Assembly: GCF_000003815.2 (NCBI RefSeq)
Contig: NC_049983.1
Coordinates: 813,137 to 877,136 of the forward strand
DNA: 64,000 nucleotides
Direction: 5' to 3'
Source: Branchiostoma floridae
Taxonomy: Eukaryota; Chordata; Leptocardii; Amphioxiformes; Branchiostomatidae
Every line of letters starts with the position of its first letter. Position 1 is the first letter of the stretch. The notes below the pieces were generated by a model. The model was not told the DNA's origin, did not search any database, and saw nothing but the letters and a program-made list of their open reading frames with translations. Below, in pieces: positions 8,044-63,700 of this stretch. Made by a program: the position numbers and the translations under genes.

Positions 8044-18189
<10,146 letters not shown>

Positions 18190-45559: not shown

Positions 45560-48352
45560 AAACTAAACTCAGAACCAGTCCTTACCGCAAATTTGTCTGG
45601 AGCACTGACTCAAAAGAAAAATTTATGGAAACGCTTAATTCGACAGCATTTTCATCTAGCATGAGTTCTTTCATTCGCAAAAGCTACGAACCAACTCCAG
45701 AGTCGTTAGAGCTAGCACTTCATGACTTTGTCACGCCAATGCAGGAAGCCGGTCAAAAGTCCCTGTCCATACGCTGCACTAAAGCAAAAAGACAGCGCTG
45801 CCCGAAACAACTAAATAAGAAAAAATGGTTTAACCAGACTTGCGCTTCAGCTAAAATCAAACTACAAAATATCTGCAAATTACTATCTAAAAATCCCAGA
45901 GACCCTCATATAAGAGGCTCCTACTTTATCCAGAAAAAACAGTACACTAGACTTATCCGCAGAACAAAGAAAGACTACAAAAACAATATCTTAAACCAAC
46001 TGAACTCATTCTCGGGGGCCAACCCTTCAGCATTTTGGTCATTATTAAAAGAATATAAATCTAAAGATCAAACATGCAACCATGAAATAATCTCCGACGA
46101 AAGTCTACATTCCCATTTTAGTAGCCTTTACGGCGAGGATTCCAACACTAACCTGCCTAAATTACCTAATGCTTTCGAAATTCAAATACAAAGAGAGATA
46201 TTGAATCTAGAAGACAAGCTTCAAAATACACATTGTAATTCATTGGATGAACCAATTAATAAAGACGAAATTAAACAAGCTATCTCTAACCTGAAAAACG
46301 GGAAAGCTTCAGGTGGTGACCTCATTCGTAATGAGATGTTAAAATGTTCGTCACATATTCTCATAGAACCGCTATCGAAACTTTTTAACTTATTCTTGTC
46401 TTCTGGTTACTTTCCCCAAGACTGGTGTACCAGCCACATTGTTGCCATTCATAAAGGCGGGGCAAAAGACGACCCCGGCAACTACAGAGGAATTTCAGTC
46501 ACTAGTTGTCTTGCCAAGCTATTTACATCAATACTAAACACGCGCCTAACCACATTTCTAGACGAAAATAATCTAATCTCCCCAAACCAAGCCGGCTTTA
46601 GAAAAGAATTTGGCACGAATGATAACTTATTTGTCCTGGACTCGCTGTTAAGTAAACACCTTTCCGAAAACAAACGCATTTATTCATGTTTTATCGATTT
46701 TAAAAAAGCCTTCGATTCCGTTTGGAGAGAGGGTCTTCGTTTCAAACTGCTAAACTCGGGAATAGGGGGTAACTTTTACAAGCTAATTAAATGTATGTAC
46801 ACTAAACCCCAGACGTGTGTAAAAACCGAGTCCGGTCTAACGCCTCCATTTGTAACCAAAAAAGGCGTTAGACAAGGCTGCAATTTAAGTCCTACATTGT
46901 TCAACCTATTCATTAATGACCTCGTTCATGTACTTGATAATGCCGAATGTGAACCACCATCTCTACATAATTTATTTGTATCGTGCTTGTTATACGCAGA
47001 CGATGTGGTTATATTTTCTGAATCAGATAAAGGGTTGCAATGTGCGCTCAACAGATTAAGTGCCTTCTGCAAGAAATGGAAACTCCAAGTTAATCTTAAG
47101 AAAACTTAAGTTCTGATTTTCAACAAATCTGGCCGATCCTTCCGAACCAAACATTCGTATTTGATCAAGATACCCTGGACATAGTACCTTCTTACTGCTA
47201 CCTAGGCCTGACTATTACATCGTCGGGAAGTTTCTCCCTGACCAAGAAACAACTTTCACTCAAAGCTCGTAACGCTAAGTATAGTTTGAAATCTCTCATT
47301 CGCTCATCGGTCTCGCCAAAGTGCCTGCTAAAAATATTTGATTCTTGCATAAAGCCAATTCTCCTATATGGGTGTGAAATTTGGGGCACAGAGTCTATTA
47401 ATGACAACTCTCCAATTGAAATTTCGCATCACCGCTTTTGTAAGAATATACTTGGAGTTTCCAGAAATTGTAGCAATTTAGCTTCTAGAGCAGAGCTTGG
47501 CAGATTTCCTTTAGACTTAGATATATCTGTGCGTGTTATTCGTTACTGGCTACGCTTATTACAAATGGATTCTCAAAGACATTTGTTACAAGCTGATGCC
47601 CTTTTGTATCAACACAAATCTATTTCTAATAGTCGTAGAAGAACTTTATTACAACGAGTGAAAGAAATTTTAGATGGTAGTGGCCACTCCTACCTTTTGT
47701 ATTCATGTAACTCACTTAGTGATATCAGATCTATATGTACAATGATAAGATCTAGAATCTCTGATATGTATATCCAAACCTCTCGCCATAACTTGAGTAT
47801 AGATACTGGTAAGCTAAGGTTTTATAAGACCTGTAAAACAGCACATACTATGGAAAAATACTTAGAATTAGATAATTTTGATTTACGCTCGGCAATCAGC
47901 AAAATTAGAATTAGTGCCCACCCTCTCGAAATTGAGAGAGGGCGGTACAAGAGGCTATCCGTGTGTGAGAGAATGTGCAAACAGTGTACGTCAAACGTGG
48001 TGGAAGACGAAACACATTTTATGTCAAACTGCTCTCTCTATAATCAAGAAAGAAAAGAGCTGTTCGAAGAGACCATCAAATTCCACCCAAACTTCCTCAC
48101 ATTCACTGACAAAAAGAAATCTGTTCTCCTTCTAACATCACAAAACCCACACATAATAAAAAAGGTGGGATCTTTCGTCTTCCACTGTCTTCGAAAAAGG
48201 AGTCGAACCCATTAACCCAGGATCTAGAGTTAGATTTTACTAGCTTTAGACTAGAGTAGACACTTGTGTTTTTGTATCGTGTACATTTGTTTGAATCTTT
48301 TTATGTTAACTGCAATTAGCCCACGGGCAAGAATTTGCAATAAACTTGATAT
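45560..48352 (+). mobile_element. 5'-truncated, broken LINE
   Basis: It is a relative of the LINE at 13511 (same domain order, moderately similar protein). The endonuclease is missing: similarity begins in the linker at about 45565. The 3' end has the hairpin TTAGCCC AC GGGCA followed by AATTTGCAATAAAC near 48340. Confidence 0.9.
45580..48215 (+). pseudogene. LINE reverse transcriptase pseudogene
   Basis: The frame holds a basic linker, then reverse transcriptase motifs NYRGISV, QAGFRKEF, FIDFKKAFD, VRQGCNLSP and LLYADDVVIF. It breaks twice: an in-frame TAA at 47107-47109, where the relative has a Lys codon, and a frameshift near 47160. Coding similarity then continues in another frame from about 47161 to 48215, with CIKPILLYGCEIWG and a terminal CKQC...HFMSNC zinc-like motif. 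The catalytic YADD is intact but the protein is interrupted just after the domain. Confidence 0.9.
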
Positions 48353-54998: not shown

Positions 54999-56223
54999 AT
55001 TGTTGTTGAGTCAAGCATGTCATTATTACATCTAAGGTAAACACATTCTTTTATATATTTACCTATTTGTACACAGTAAAGGTTATTACCTCCAAGAATG
55101 TAGATCGAACGGAAAGTATCAAATTCTTTAGAGCAAGGAGCTTAAATTTTTTAAGCTCCTTGTTTAGAGATAGATGAAGAAATGTAAAAGGTACCAACTC
55201 TACTTGAATGGGATGAACTGAGTCATCTTTGTTTGCGTGGTATTACTGGGATTTGCCCTTTGAACGGAGTTATTATAATTTCAGAAATATTTTCACTTCA
55301 GTTCGTTCCTATGTTTGTACCGACATTAATCAGACGCATTAGTTCTATAGCCCGCCCGATCTTTTACTGGTCGCCTTTTGACAATGTCTTTAAAGCCATA
55401 TATATTGTTTTTTCACCTGGAGGTCATTGCGGGCCATAAAAATCTATTTTTTTAACGATAATACTTTTATTCAATAATAGTTAATACTTTGAATAAAAGT
55501 CCTTATTTATTTTCCATTGTAACCAGGGCAACTCTCTCGGTTGCTAAGGAAGGCACAAGACACACGTATACAGAGAATATACACAATATGTACATGTACA
55601 TAACAATTGTATGTACATAACAAGTCCATCATACACACATACCAATTCTCATATTTGTTATCCGTGCCAAGTCGTAAATTGTAAAGTCTTAAACTGGAAC
55701 TATGCGACTCCGGATGTCTTACTGAGAGATGATTGCGGTGCGTTATATGGCAGTTAGCTGAGGAATGACTTAATGAGTTCACTCTACTATATTGCATTAA
55801 CAAAAATGCTGTTAGATTTCGTCAGATGAAATAAGTTTTTTTTTTGGACATTCCATTTTGCCGAACTAACAGACATAAGAACTCACCGATACCATACCTG
55901 GTATACTTACTGAATAAGTAATTACTCATTAGAAACCGCTTCTGATATGTTTATTACTCAGTAATGATACAGCGTTTGTATGGCAACTTGATATTTTTAT
56001 ACTTATTATAAATTTTAAGACGAATACCCTACAATATTCTAGTAAAGAATTGCTTGTAGGACATTATGTAAAGTTTTTAATAGTGTGCCCGTTTTTTTTA
56101 CTACAGCTGTTTGTATTATGTGAATGTCGACGCAATTCAGCTATCAGCTGCTATGTCGTACATGTTGCAATAAAACTTGTCAAACTTGTCAAACTTTTCT
56201 CTATCCATACTCCCCTCTCACAG
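54999..56223. other. No gene recognised
   Basis: AT-rich DNA with short inverted words (for example AATTTTTTAAGCTCCTTG near 55145). It ends in a possible splice acceptor (CCTCTCACAG) just before the zinc-finger exon, so an upstream non-coding exon of that gene may lie here. Confidence 0.4.
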
Positions 56224-56225
56224 AA

Positions 56226-57836
56226 ATGGAAGATTCCAGTCTTGAACGTTTCTGTAAAGAAAAGTGTGCAGCAGGAGATCCTGGAAAGGAGAGTGACAGC
56301 AGGGAGACCCAGACAACAGACATGGGTCTGCAGCAGGAAACGTGTAATGTGAACTTTCCCCAACCTAAAAAAGAATCAACCTCACAGGTACAAAAGAGCA
56401 GAGGTGATGTAAGAAGTACCATAGTCCTTGTACCTTGGTCCTTTATCCCAGTCCAGAGTACGATAATCCCGGCGGTCCAGGCTGTGGGAAGTCATGTGAT
56501 GAAAAACACTGGTGAGAAGCCTTATACGTGTGGGGAAGATGGCTACAGAACTGCCCCAAACGACCAGTTAGCTAAACAGACGAGAACACTCACAGAAGAA
56601 AAACCTTACAAATGTGACCATTGTGATTATTCTGCTGCAGTAAAGTACGCTTTGGTCCAACATCTAAGAAAGCACACTGGTGAGAAACCCTACANNNNNN
56701 NNNNNNNNNNNNNNNNNNNNNNNNNNNNNNNNNNNNNNNNNNNNNNNNNNNNNNNNNNNNNNNNNNNNNNNNNNNNNNNNNNNNNNNNNNNNNNNNNNNN
56801 NNNNNNNNNNNNNNNNNNNNNNNNNNNNNNNNNNNNNNNNNNNNNNNNNNNNNNNNNNNNNNNNNNNNNNNNNNNNNNNNNNNNNNNNNNNNNNNNNNNN
56901 NNNNNNNNNNNNNNNNNNNNNNNNNNNNNNNNNNNNNNNNNNNNNNNNNNNNNNNNNNNNNNNNNNNNNNNNNNNNNNNNNNNNNNNNNNNNNNNNNNNN
57001 NNNNNNNNNNNNNNNNNNNNNNNNNNNNNNNNNNNNNNNNNNNNNNNNNNNNNNNNNNNNNNNNNNNNNNNNNNNNNNNNNNNNNNNNNNNNNNNNNNNN
57101 NNNNNNNNNNNNNNNNNNNNNNNNNNNNNNNNNNNNNNNNNNNNNNNNNNNNNNNNNNNNNNNNNNNNNNNNNNNNNNNNNNNNNNNNNNNNNNNNNNNN
57201 NNNNNNNNNNNNNNNNNNNNNNNNNNNNNNNNNNNNNNNNNNNNNNNNNNTGCAGCAGAAAAATCCACTTTGGATCAACACCTCACTATACACACCGGTG
57301 AGAAACCCTACATGTGTGACAAATGTGGGTACAGGACAGCTAAAAAGTCTTATTTCACCTTTCATATGAAAACCCATACAGGGGTGAAATTGTACAACTG
57401 TGATCTGTGTGACTATTCGACAGCACGGAAATTTCATCTAGACCAACATCTAGCTAGACACACTGGTGAGAAACCCTTCATGTGTGCGGAGTGCGGATTC
57501 AGGACAGCTTTAAAGGCTAACTTATCCCGACATATGAGAACCCACACAGGAGAAAAACCTTACAAATGTGACCAGTGTGACTATTCTGCTGCGCAGAAAG
57601 GTGAATTAGATTACCATGTAGCAAACCACACCGGTGAGAAACCCTACATGTGTGGAGAATGTGATTTCAGAACAAGTCGAAGGCCTTGTTTAACCCGACA
57701 TATGAGAACCCACACAGGAGAAAAACCCTACAAGTGTGACCAGTGCGACTATTCTGCAGCACAGAAAGGCACATTAGACAAACATCGTAAACAACACGCT
57801 TTCAAGAAACCCATGAATATATGTGAGAAGCGTTGA
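56226..57836 (+). CDS. C2H2 zinc-finger protein with alternating finger types
   Basis: This is probably a nuclear DNA-binding protein. I chose ATG 56226 because it follows a splice acceptor (CTCACAG, 56221-56223), although the frame is open further upstream. The first 95 residues are acidic/polar with no finger. Then come a degenerate finger (about 56520-56600, first Cys pair lost), one full finger (about 56607-56690), the gap 56695-57250, a partial finger and six full fingers ending near 57810, joined by TGEKPY linkers (one altered, TGVKLY). Two finger types alternate: MCxxCxxRT and KCDxCDYSAA. The gap leaves the frame intact but does not fit the 84-bp finger period, so its length is only an estimate. 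TGA is at 57834-57836. The target is unknown. Confidence 0.85.
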   Translation: MEDSSLERFCKEKCAAGDPGKESDSRETQTTDMGLQQETCNVNFPQPKKESTSQVQKSRGDVRSTIVLVPWSFIPVQSTIIPAVQAVGSHVMKNTGEKPYTCGEDGYRTAPNDQLAKQTRTLTEEKPYKCDHCDYSAAVKYALVQHLRKHTGEKPYXXXXXXXXXXXXXXXXXXXXXXXXXXXXXXXXXXXXXXXXXXXXXXXXXXXXXXXXXXXXXXXXXXXXXXXXXXXXXXXXXXXXXXXXXXXXXXXXXXXXXXXXXXXXXXXXXXXXXXXXXXXXXXXXXXXXXXXXXXXXXXXXXXXXXXXXXXXXXXXXXXXXXXXXXXXXXXXXXXXXXXXXXXAAEKSTLDQHLTIHTGEKPYMCDKCGYRTAKKSYFTFHMKTHTGVKLYNCDLCDYSTARKFHLDQHLARHTGEKPFMCAECGFRTALKANLSRHMRTHTGEKPYKCDQCDYSAAQKGELDYHVANHTGEKPYMCGECDFRTSRRPCLTRHMRTHTGEKPYKCDQCDYSAAQKGTLDKHRKQHAFKKPMNICEKR

Positions 57837-60298: not shown

Positions 60299-60334
60299 TT
60301 AATAAAAAGCGCAAACATTTTCTTGAATCATTCA
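60299..60334 (+). promoter_or_regulatory. Histone-type core promoter (TATA-like box and cap site)
   Basis: TTAATAAAAAG (TATA-like) is at 60299-60309. TCATTCA at 60328-60334 matches the PyCATTCPu cap-site consensus known from replication-dependent histone genes, with the expected spacing of about 28 bp. The predicted 5' UTR is about 30 nt. Confidence 0.6.
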
Positions 60335-60359
60335 TCTTTGAACTACTGCTACCCGAGAG

Positions 60360-60692
60360 ATGGCCGCCGCTTACGATAAAGACATCCCCGATGCCCTGAC
60401 CCTAGCGACTCTTGCGATGTACATCGACCACAACTGGCACGGTACAGTACTGATAGAGAACTCTAAGCCGTTAATAAGTGTTCTGACAACTCTGAAGTTG
60501 AAGCTAGAAGCCCTGGGATCCCGGAGCGGTGTCGACTTCAGATTTAAAATGTTCGATGTGCCGATGCTTGGGACGGACTACTTACCGGTGTACGTACAAA
60601 ACAGCGAGGACGTCAGGAACATTCTGGACATTCTCAACAGAGATTTTCCTGAGGTGAAAACCATGGTCCTAGCGCCGGGAAAACACTACTAA
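60360..60692 (+). CDS. Intronless 110-residue non-histone protein in a histone-type gene
   Basis: The ATG at 60360 is in good context (GAGAGATGGCC) and the single exon ends in TAA at 60690. The protein is slightly acidic (about 14 Asp/Glu to 11 Lys/Arg) with one Trp and no histone fold sequence. The N-terminal half looks helical (DALTLATLAMYID, LTTLKLKLEALG) and the C-terminal half has a likely strand (VDFRFKMFDVP) and a helix (DVRNILDILNRDF). There is no signal peptide or membrane segment. I do not recognise the family. It is flanked by a TATA-like box and histone cap-site match upstream and by two histone-type stem-loops 31 and 68 nt after the stop. From histone biology, this suggests S-phase-coupled, poly(A)-less mRNA. 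Whether the protein is chromatin-related is unknown. Confidence 0.75.
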   Translation: MAAAYDKDIPDALTLATLAMYIDHNWHGTVLIENSKPLISVLTTLKLKLEALGSRSGVDFRFKMFDVPMLGTDYLPVYVQNSEDVRNILDILNRDFPEVKTMVLAPGKHY

Positions 60693-60722
60693 GTCAACCC
60701 ATCACGCCGTACGTTAAACCCC

Positions 60723-60738
60723 GGCCCTTCTCAGGGCC
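60723..60738 (+). terminator. Histone-type 3' stem-loop 1
   Basis: GGCCCT-TCTC-AGGGCC is a perfect 6-bp stem with a UYUN loop, followed by ACCCA as in the histone mRNA consensus that SLBP binds. It is preceded by AAACCCC. No purine-rich downstream element follows directly. Confidence 0.85.
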
Positions 60739-60759
60739 ACCCAAATATCACCAAACCCC

Positions 60760-60775
60760 GGCCCTTTTCAGGGCC
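60760..60775 (+). terminator. Histone-type 3' stem-loop 2
   Basis: GGCCCT-TTTC-AGGGCC with CCAAA upstream and ACCCA downstream is a near-perfect match to the replication-dependent histone stem-loop. It arose with loop 1 by a tandem duplication with a period of about 37 bp. Confidence 0.9.
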
Positions 60776-60787
60776 ACCCAAATGTTT

Positions 60788-60796
60788 CAGAAAAGT
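60788..60796 (+). promoter_or_regulatory. Possible histone downstream element
   Basis: CAGAAAAGT, 13 nt after stem-loop 2, resembles the purine-rich element (CAAGAAAGA in sea urchin) that pairs with U7 snRNA. It is a short motif, so this is suggestive only. Confidence 0.5.
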
Positions 60797-60799
60797 GCT

Positions 60800-63700
60800 T
60801 ATCGTTTCACAAAACACATACACATACACACAATTAAATACCTACTAATGAGGATTTACAATTCTTTAATGAATAGTTCTTGTTATCAACACCGATCTAA
60901 TCTTGTTCTTATCCTGTATTAAACTGTTTTGTTACATAATTATATCAATATCACCTCCACCTTGGATCTGAGATGTAAAAATGATATAGTGTAATTAGTA
61001 TTAATCCGATTTACCATTAATCCTACGATAAGCCGATAAGAAGCTAATTATGTCAACACTCCTTAGGGCAGCGACTCCTAGCGGCGGAGTCAGAACTGCA
61101 GTTGGTCTGAACAGACCTGTATTCTACTCACCATGAAAGAGTGATGAACAGATGAATTGTTCAAAATGTAAATGAAGTAACTTGAGAACAGTCACCACAA
61201 GCAATTCTTAACTCCAACACCACATCATTAATCATAAGACGAAACAAAATATTAAGCGAATACATGACTAGAAATGCAGTAAGTTATGTTTAACAAGAAA
61301 CTGACATTAGGCTCACTTATATAATGTAGCTGCTGTATTAAAGTATGGGAGACCTTTTGAAGGTAAAGTTTTTTTCAACACCACAGAAATTTTGTCACTT
61401 ATCTTCAAGGGAAAGTTCCCAATACGTTCACAGGTAGAAAACTTTGAATATGTCAAAAGAACTTCATTTCCTTAAAATGACTTACCAATAGTGAAGATAA
61501 TCACGTGTTACCATTGTTATCCACCAAAGAAGAAACATGATCATGTCAAATGTGACATCGCAAACGGATAATTTTTCTGCTCCCTCGTGTTGGACTGTTT
61601 CTGTTTCAAGACCTTTATAGACGTTTATAGCTAGCTGTGTTCTTCAAATTCCCGNNNNNNNNNNNNNNNNNNNNNNNNNNNNNNNNNNNNNNNNNNNNNN
61701 NNNNNNNNNNNNNNNNNNNNNNNNNNNNNNNNNNNNNNNNNNNNNNNNNNNNNNTGTGTTTAACTAGTTCACTACTGTTACAACCGTGATAGAAACGCCT
61801 TCCCTATAGCTACTGAAGGCTGGGGTTAATTATAATGGCATTACTAAAGGCTGTAAAGGCTGGCGGTGGCGAACACCAGGCTAGTAAACAGCCACCAAGT
61901 CTTGGCAATCATCGCTACCTTCGTATTGGAGTGCACACTACTCAACAGTTATAACGGAGATGTACTTTGAAACGCGCACAGTTGTAGGACCAGTGTTCAA
62001 CCTCAGATCTCAGACTCCTGACCACGTGCGGTCAAGGTCGTAGGACAAAAAGGCGAACTGATTTGCACGCTGACCCAGATACATGTACAGTGCTAGAAAC
62101 TGAAGGCCAGGGCAGTCGTCTGGGGCAGTAGCTTGCTGACCCAGAAAAACGTATACCTTCCTACTGAAGGCCGGGGTTTATAGCCGAAATGGCTTTAAAA
62201 AAATGCTGATTTGCTTACATGGATGACACCCCATGGGAACTCAAAAACTGGTGCGAATTTAGAAAGAAAAGAGTCTGGCTAAAAAAAAAGAGTTGCCTAC
62301 GCCATGACATTTATTGTGACCAGGAAGGATGAATAGCCTGACAAAAATCGCGCTCCTAGCGAGAGATTGTGTAAACACAGGCTAGAAGGGTACACAAATG
62401 GCTAAATACACTGAATACGGCCATTAAGGACCATATATAGAGGACTTTACGGACCAACACAAAACTAGTAAAAGTTTAAATACATCGTACTTCTTTCAAT
62501 TTCGTTCTAAATAAACAAAAAAATGTAATAACGGACAAAATAAAGAGGTACTTCACTAGTTTAATAAGTGCTTGTTCTGTAAACTATTTTTTTATGATAA
62601 ACTTTTTTATTCTATTTTCACCGATGAAAGAGACAAGATATCCAAATCGTACAGGCACAGGTACAGGTACGTAGGTTTAAGAACAGGTCCAGACCTTAAC
62701 CTGTGCCTAAACAAGTTTGGTCAATGGTCTGTAAGTTATAAATGTAGCAAACTGTCTTTTTAGTGCAAAATTGCCATCTTTGTATGAGGATTTAGATATT
62801 TGAACCTCATAAAACGAATTTTCAACTGCAATATTATTACATTTCTCATCCTTGGAATTTACTTGTATTTAGTCTCAAAACGTGGTCTTCAATAGAGATT
62901 TAGTTAGTTTAGGTACAGCTAGGTACACAGATGACGGTCCGGACCTGTACCTAAACGATTTTAAAAGGTACGGTACAGGTAACGTTACGGATATTTAGGT
63001 ACACAGGATCCATCCAAAGCTTCTCGAGCTACGAAGGTCACAGACAAACGACAAATCAAACATAACCTCAGTCTTGGCGAAGCGGCCTTCTATGGTACTT
63101 TATCGGAATCCCCGGATTTTGAGATATCGTTAGTTGCGAAGAGCTAGTGGGTTCACAACGCCTCCTAGCGGAATCTGGACAAATGACATGGCCATTCAGC
63201 CCTCCCTTTTACTAAACATCATTTGTTACCGCAGATTCATCACAATCAAACGTGTCAAAATACTCTTCAAAAGCTACCATCTTCGTTTGAAATTGTATCA
63301 AAATTATATATATAACATAATACAAATAATTACAACAGATATGCATGAATTAAAAAGAAAATTCTTTCGTATTATGGTGAATAATTTTATTGATTCGTTG
63401 TCCATAATTGGCAGGCTATTTGTTTCTGCTCATTCGATAACTCAAATCGGTACACAGAGACATGGAGAAAATTTCTCCTACTTTATAATATTTATTTATA
63501 ACGTAAGCGCATATTAATGTAAGCAAATAAGGCCAAGTTGTACTACATATGGAAGAGGAATTTGAGATGGAACAACAAGACAATGAAGACATCGTTCAAA
63601 ATCAGGAGACAGGCAAGTTTCACCCGGAAAGTTTTAGGGGAGGGGGGCATAGAAATATTGACTTGCAACTCTGAAGAATTGACCGAAGCTCTAAACTATT

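Follow-up and report, generated by a model that had tools for sequence, protein, structure and literature searches.

According to two papers of 2009, the stem-loop was unique to histone mRNAs and no genome-wide study showing SLBP on non-histone RNAs existed (PMC2781718), and the replication-dependent histone mRNAs were the only known cellular mRNAs lacking a poly(A) tail (PMC2642717). A close departure from the canonical set is that of the bdelloid H2A variants, which carry a stem-loop together with a putative poly(A) signal (PMC2642717), a combination also possible in the gene considered here; however, these variants are histones, whereas the product of the present gene is not. A search of the openly licensed literature, covering titles and the openings of abstracts, returned no report of histone-type ends on non-histone genes or families. 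The gene in question belongs to a genome of 513 Mb (431 contigs) and is located on contig C5, in a window of 64 kb, by which we mean the whole stretch of DNA that was analysed. It resembles the metazoan replication-dependent histone genes (RF00032) in its promoter layout, single-exon frame, distance from stop codon to loop, loop, ACCCA flank and downstream element, but it differs from them in its non-histone product, its orphan locus and its two tandem loops; among its relatives, some are without the signal, L039 has its loop 11 nt past the stop codon and L032 has an apparent intron. Judging from sequence, it is probable that the window gene is an intact member of a lineage-specific (apparently amphioxus) family of small non-histone proteins, several of whose genes have SLBP/U7-type 3' ends and would give poly(A)-less, probably replication-linked mRNAs. 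We rate it as a case of a known processing system, viz. the histone-type 3' end, with a new kind of user. The coordinates of the features are collected in Table 1.

Table 1. Features of the window gene, of its relatives and of other loop-bearing loci in the same genome (positions without a locus or contig name are those of the window; bit scores of loci outside the window are those of their loops).
Feature	Location	Strand	Observation
TATA-like box AATAAAAA	60301..60308	+	Sequence; compared with the genome's core-histone promoters
TCATTCA	60328..60334	+	YCATTC comparison with core-histone promoters of the same genome
110-aa ORF, non-histone protein	60360..60692	+	Intact frame; relatives in own genome; no match in Pfam or PDB sequences
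First histone-type stem-loop, GGCCCT-TCTC-AGGGCC	60723..60738	+	Rfam 24.0 bits; own model 28.9 bits
Second histone-type stem-loop, GGCCCT-TTTC-AGGGCC, then ACCCA	60760..60775	+	Rfam 36.2 bits; own model 57.1 bits
Histone-downstream-element-like purine-rich tract CAGAAAAGTGCTTATCG	60788..60804	+	Aligns with the corresponding elements of histone genes in the same genome
Reverse-transcriptase-like frames, non-LTR retrotransposons	13511-17042 and 45625-48215		By eye
C2H2 zinc-finger array frame	56124-57836		By eye; internal run of N
L032, family member	C2		Five tandem units, 44.3-69.7 bits; first loop 37 nt past stop
L035, family member	C5, 14 Mb from window gene		54.7 bits; loop 31 nt past stop
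Weaker loop at L035	L035:899-960	-	27.4 bits; 20 nt past a 70-aa frame on the opposite strand, divergent to the L035 member
L039, family member	C3		63.7 bits; loop 11 nt past stop; divergently paired with H3-derived gene
217-aa H3-derived frame	L039:2285-2938	+	Divergent to the L039 family member; own loop 65.6 bits
L036, L040, L041, L044	C9 and C16		L035-related copies; loops or remnants kept
L033/L034 copy	C11		Frame with stops; loop or remnant kept
L043	C11		Decayed loop, 23.3 bits; downstream element recognisable
L042			10.5 bits; downstream-element-like stretch kept; loop not convincing
L009, P2RX7_C-like	C19:3548768		Frame open; loop and downstream element 51.9 bits
L059, P2RX7_C-like	C9:16166874		Frame looks broken against L009; loop and downstream element 61.7 bits
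Loop and downstream element	L048:1466-1528 (C3:18424269)	-	49.1 bits; no recognised gene upstream
Strong loop	L046:890-952 (C3 near 11937870)	+	73.6 bits; no obvious frame upstream; H3-derived fragment about 650 nt before loop

The frame of the window gene is uninterrupted and, on the reading of this single open frame, without introns, and the expectation of an intronless gene of 110 codons is thus borne out. The product was also expected to be slightly acidic and to show no histone sequence. Its computed pI is 5.47, and searches with the window protein at E<=10 matched 0 Pfam families and 0 PDB sequences; homology of the 110 residues to a diverged histone, which had been named beforehand as one result that would speak against the original prediction, was therefore not found in either collection, and the gene does not encode a recognisable histone. 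Profile searches with the window family gave nothing significant (best E 0.67 and 0.75), and no relatives were confirmed in the viral and prokaryote collections searched. Structure prediction, with a mean pLDDT of 62 for the protein alone and 63 with 7 alignment rows, weakly suggests a mixed alpha/beta fold, perhaps ferredoxin-like, which should be taken as a hint; the best Foldseek match of the predicted structure had an E of 0.011 (designed and PII-like proteins) and the best match in a viral structure library an E of 0.010, with none at 0.001 or better in either search. If the window protein were a histone diverged past recognition, then the gene would be merely an odd histone gene, and the position of one family member divergent to an H3-derived gene, where a histone partner would be located, is in keeping with this. 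However, we regard this explanation as extremely improbable, as in addition to the lack of any Pfam match for the window protein, no histone match was obtained for the nine other family members scanned at E<=1, whereas the same scan recognised the diverged H3-derived neighbour of L039 at 5.1e-16; the predicted fold, although of low confidence, points in the same direction.

Upstream of the frame, a TATA-like box and a TCATTCA, which had been placed about 28 bp apart, are present and measure 27 bp from start to start, with the TCATTCA, which we take to be a histone-type cap-site motif, starting 32 bp before the start codon. In a set of 28 distinct and placeable core-histone promoters of the same genome (H1 and N-containing promoters being left out), a TATA-like hexamer, counted as any of eight hexamers on a loose list that includes AATAAA, is found in 27, and YCATTC follows such a hexamer at 27-35 bp in 13. 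The layout of the window promoter is thus histone-like, though chance also yields similar pairs: when both strands of the window are counted, 0.26 would be expected, and 23 of 100 shuffles contained one or more. Since similarly spaced pairs are this common by chance, the promoter by itself is weak evidence.

At the 3' end, two perfect 6-bp stems with UYUN loops and ACCCA flanks had been described at 31 and 68 nt after the stop codon, and the analysis confirms them: the first stem-loop begins with the 31st base past the stop codon and the second with the 68th, their loop letters are TCTC and TTTC, respectively, and ACCCA stands directly 3' of each, so that the six-base-pair stem, the UYUN loop and the ACC flank are all seen in both. 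The pattern had no match in any of 100 shuffles of the window, and a slightly wider form of it matched 109 times in the 513-Mb genome and 0 times in the reversed control, which indicates that the window loops are not due to chance. The second loop, with the sequence downstream of it, scores over the Rfam gathering threshold of 34 for RF00032 (Histone3) and the first loop under it. Our own covariance model (R1), built from 46 histone 3' ends of the same genome (alignment A2), matches the second loop with its flanks and the first over model positions 9-35, viz. the stem-loop part only; the first loop lacks a complete downstream element. The sequences of the two loop units are almost the same (27 of 28 letters identical) and fold as separate hairpins, the whole stretch having a z of -2.1 with 7 of 200 shuffles equally good. 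The purine-rich tract noted earlier is found as CAGAAAAGTGCTTATCG, scoring within the range of the genome's histone downstream elements. When the ACCCA flank was included, 0 of 2000 shuffles reached the highest score that the tract obtained against 46 histone elements; without the flank, 1 of 2000 shuffles did so, as did 5 of 3000 random 32-mers from the window, and the mean score of 7.5 lies within the range (5.4-13.4) of the histones among themselves. The best alignment of this tract is with an H4 downstream element, and the likeness is partial in the covariance-model alignment, where six consensus positions are unmatched.

Calling this a 'complete' histone-gene architecture was, however, too strong, because although the frame, promoter, loops and downstream tract are all there, the U7 snRNA was not located. 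An Rfam search and a first pattern matched nothing, which does not imply absence since a control of these searches likewise matched in no genome; a looser pattern matched at 12 places and its reversed form at 1, 6 of the 12 being copies of one sequence, and in the 4 places inspected by eye no U7-like hairpin was seen after the Sm-like site. The SLBP RNA-binding domain (PF15247) is encoded in the genome: on C1, two exons match it with 51.5 and 35.9 bits (cut-off 27), and the stretch of the second has one stop in the six-frame reading. Neither Rfam nor our own model found a further histone-type loop in the 64-kb window, and the gene is therefore not located in a histone cluster; such a location is usual for replication-dependent histone genes and is not required of every one. 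Across the genome, at least 68 distinct loop contexts were found in the loci examined, which are those of the best or first matches and form a non-exhaustive sample. When each was assigned by its best blastx match in the upstream sequence (at most 1000 nt), 53 of these were placed behind histone frames (H2A 13, H3 11, H1 10, H4 10 and H2B 9, one of the H3 rows being the H3-derived gene of L039), 4 lie behind the window family, two of them being the window's own loops, and 11 match neither, including 2 that have less than 50 nt of upstream sequence and are hence uninformative. For the core histones of this genome, the loop is mostly about 27-41 nt past the end of the blastx match.

When searched against the genome, the window protein had 14 matches at E<=10, inclusive of itself and several weak ones, and L037 had 13 at E<=1; the proteins of this family are about 93-121 aa long. 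By our own model, an open frame is followed by a strong loop at four loci, viz. the window gene, L032, L035 and L039, and the identity of the window protein to the other three is 26-37%, on account of which the association between frame and loop looks old. Hence, the claim of a gene for a new protein with histone-type ends holds with respect to its non-histone product and its histone-type promoter and 3' end, but the gene is not solitary; it is one of a family, and the presence of several loop-bearing relatives argues against a one-off accident. For L032, joining two inferred exons gives an open frame: the apparent 5' exon ends AAGTCAG/GTACCC, the 3' exon follows CACATAG and the domain is split, so that this gene appears, from the sequence reading, to have one intron, unlike typical histone genes. 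In its first unit, an A-U pair replaces the outermost G-C pair, both partners having changed so that the stem is preserved, and the full stem is present in 3 of its 5 units, one of the three having an altered flank. The L039 locus is close to other loop matches on C3. The copies which are decayed or without a full open gene (L033, L036, L040, L041, L043 and L044) score 23.3-54.7 bits, and no convincing loop was found with our own model at L037 (5.9 bits), L038 (2.4 bits), L090 (1.1 bits, coding strand) and L091 (4.6 bits). The C196 members L087, L090 and L091 have, by eye, a splice-acceptor-like sequence just 5' of the start codon and due to this they may be ordinary spliced genes. Pfam matches of L035 to APP1_cat (E 0.0093) and of L032 to Pardaxin (E 0.072) are under the cut-off and were judged to be chance.

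The frames of the family are under constraint. The residues W26, T29, L31 and L92 are invariant in an 11-row alignment, and pairwise dN/dS values, calculated with a Nei-Gojobori-style in-house script without a significance test, are 0.31 for L039/L043 (dS 0.45), 0.37 for the window gene and L032 (dS 1.6, near saturation), 0.35 for the window gene and L035 (dS 2.2), and 0.13-0.15 for L037 against L043 and L039 (dS 2.5-2.8, saturated). These results bear on the explanation that the window gene is a product of chance or an artefact, viz. a random frame beside a stray histone 3' flank or a loop-bearing interspersed repeat. Repeat copies with loops do occur elsewhere (L045, L047, L049 and L054, with similar ones at L095 and L096), so that stray loops are possible, but the shared residues, the dN/dS values below 1, the absence of the repeat's CAGCACTGG word and of its complement from the whole window, and the same arrangement of frame and loop at four separate loci make this explanation highly unlikely.

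A different possibility is that the frame is real and the histone-type ends are leftovers of its birth in or beside histone genes, the mRNAs now being polyadenylated downstream and the loops decaying. The state of the loops in a tree of 10 members (rooted at the midpoint for drawing only), in which the window gene groups with L032 (98/93) and L035 joins both (90/89), is partly what this would lead one to expect: the loop is intact in 4 of the 10, decayed in L043, and unconvincing in L037, L038, L042, L090 and L091 (1.1-10.5 bits). The intact-loop label requires at least two changes on this tree, and 59 of 500 shuffles were equally clustered, i.e. there is no significant clustering. Poly(A) signals also occur past the loops. 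In the window, ATTAAA sites are present at 60833, 60918 and 61337, with no AATAAA between 60690 and 61400, and as the first of them lies 57 nt past the second loop, a polyadenylated form is possible; AATAAA is found 85 nt past the loop of L035 and 11 nt past that of L039, within its downstream element. However, AATAAA is likewise present within 300 nt in 55 of 94 histone loop rows (which include overlapping loci), and its presence downstream should thus not be interpreted as diagnostic of a polyadenylated mRNA. Further, both stems of the window gene are perfect and its downstream element is histone-like, L032 retains the full stem in three of five units despite the altered base pair, and intact loops stand beside open frames in four diverged members. 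In view of these observations, we consider it rather unlikely that the ends are mere leftovers, and favour the reading in which the family has functional histone-type 3' ends.

As to how the family could have acquired these ends, capture of histone flanks had been proposed, and the divergent pairing of L039 with an H3-derived gene makes this plausible, but does not prove it. H3-like segments are repeated in the N-terminal part of the H3-derived frame, and a second copy of the divergent pair, in which the H3-derived part has a stop, is present on C11. This layout is that of paired histone genes, and it suggests how the family may have obtained its 3' ends: most likely, an ancestral member would have entered a histone gene pair, in the way that L039 on C3 still stands beside an H3-derived gene, and copies of the family genes would later have spread as DNA. 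The downstream element is retained in the strong copies. As it lies 3' of the cleavage site, a copy made from a mature histone-type mRNA would lack it; due to this, the family probably spread at the DNA level and not from mature mRNA, although copying of a longer transcript is possible.

Histone-type ends are also seen outside this family. The paralogous loci L009 and L059 have a histone-type loop and downstream element, as the window gene does, but no homology is detectable between their N-termini and the window family (hhalign probability 0.1); the label P2RX7_C for them rests on a Pfam match of L009 with an E of 0.13, which is under the cut-off. In the 3.4-kb loci of six relatives (L076-L081), a search with the model on two strands found no loop. 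The interspersed repeat noted above has tandem CAGCACTGG-type palindromes, and in the copies listed there the histone-type loop and downstream element lie at its end; a 381-bp piece of it has at least 186 matching pieces in the genome, many of them spanning the palindrome part only. We give an even chance to the proposal that the histone 3'-end system in this animal lineage is not restricted to histones and runs a wider regulon, linked throughout to SLBP and DNA replication, whose members include a fast-diverging non-histone family (up to five tandem units), one or more unrelated P2RX7_C-like genes and an interspersed repeat.

With regard to the transcription, processing, timing and role of the window gene, we infer the following course. 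Downstream of the TATA-like box, TCATTCA would serve as the start site of RNA polymerase II; SLBP would bind a stem-loop and U7 snRNP would pair with the element past the second loop. The transcript would then be cut between the second loop and the downstream element and receive no poly(A) tail, and the mature message would carry both loops, one after the other. When this message is translated and degraded would depend on DNA replication, or on eggs and early embryos rich in SLBP, and the protein would thereby be made together with the histones; our guess, held with low confidence, is that it is chromatin- or replication-linked, or egg-stored, and wanted in step with histones. If this reading is correct, then a non-histone family that keeps a histone-type end at several loci would imply that other genes can recruit this system. 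Such genes would provide natural test cases for the role of the loop apart from histone supply, and they would raise the question of what purpose is served by a non-histone protein whose synthesis keeps pace with that of histones.
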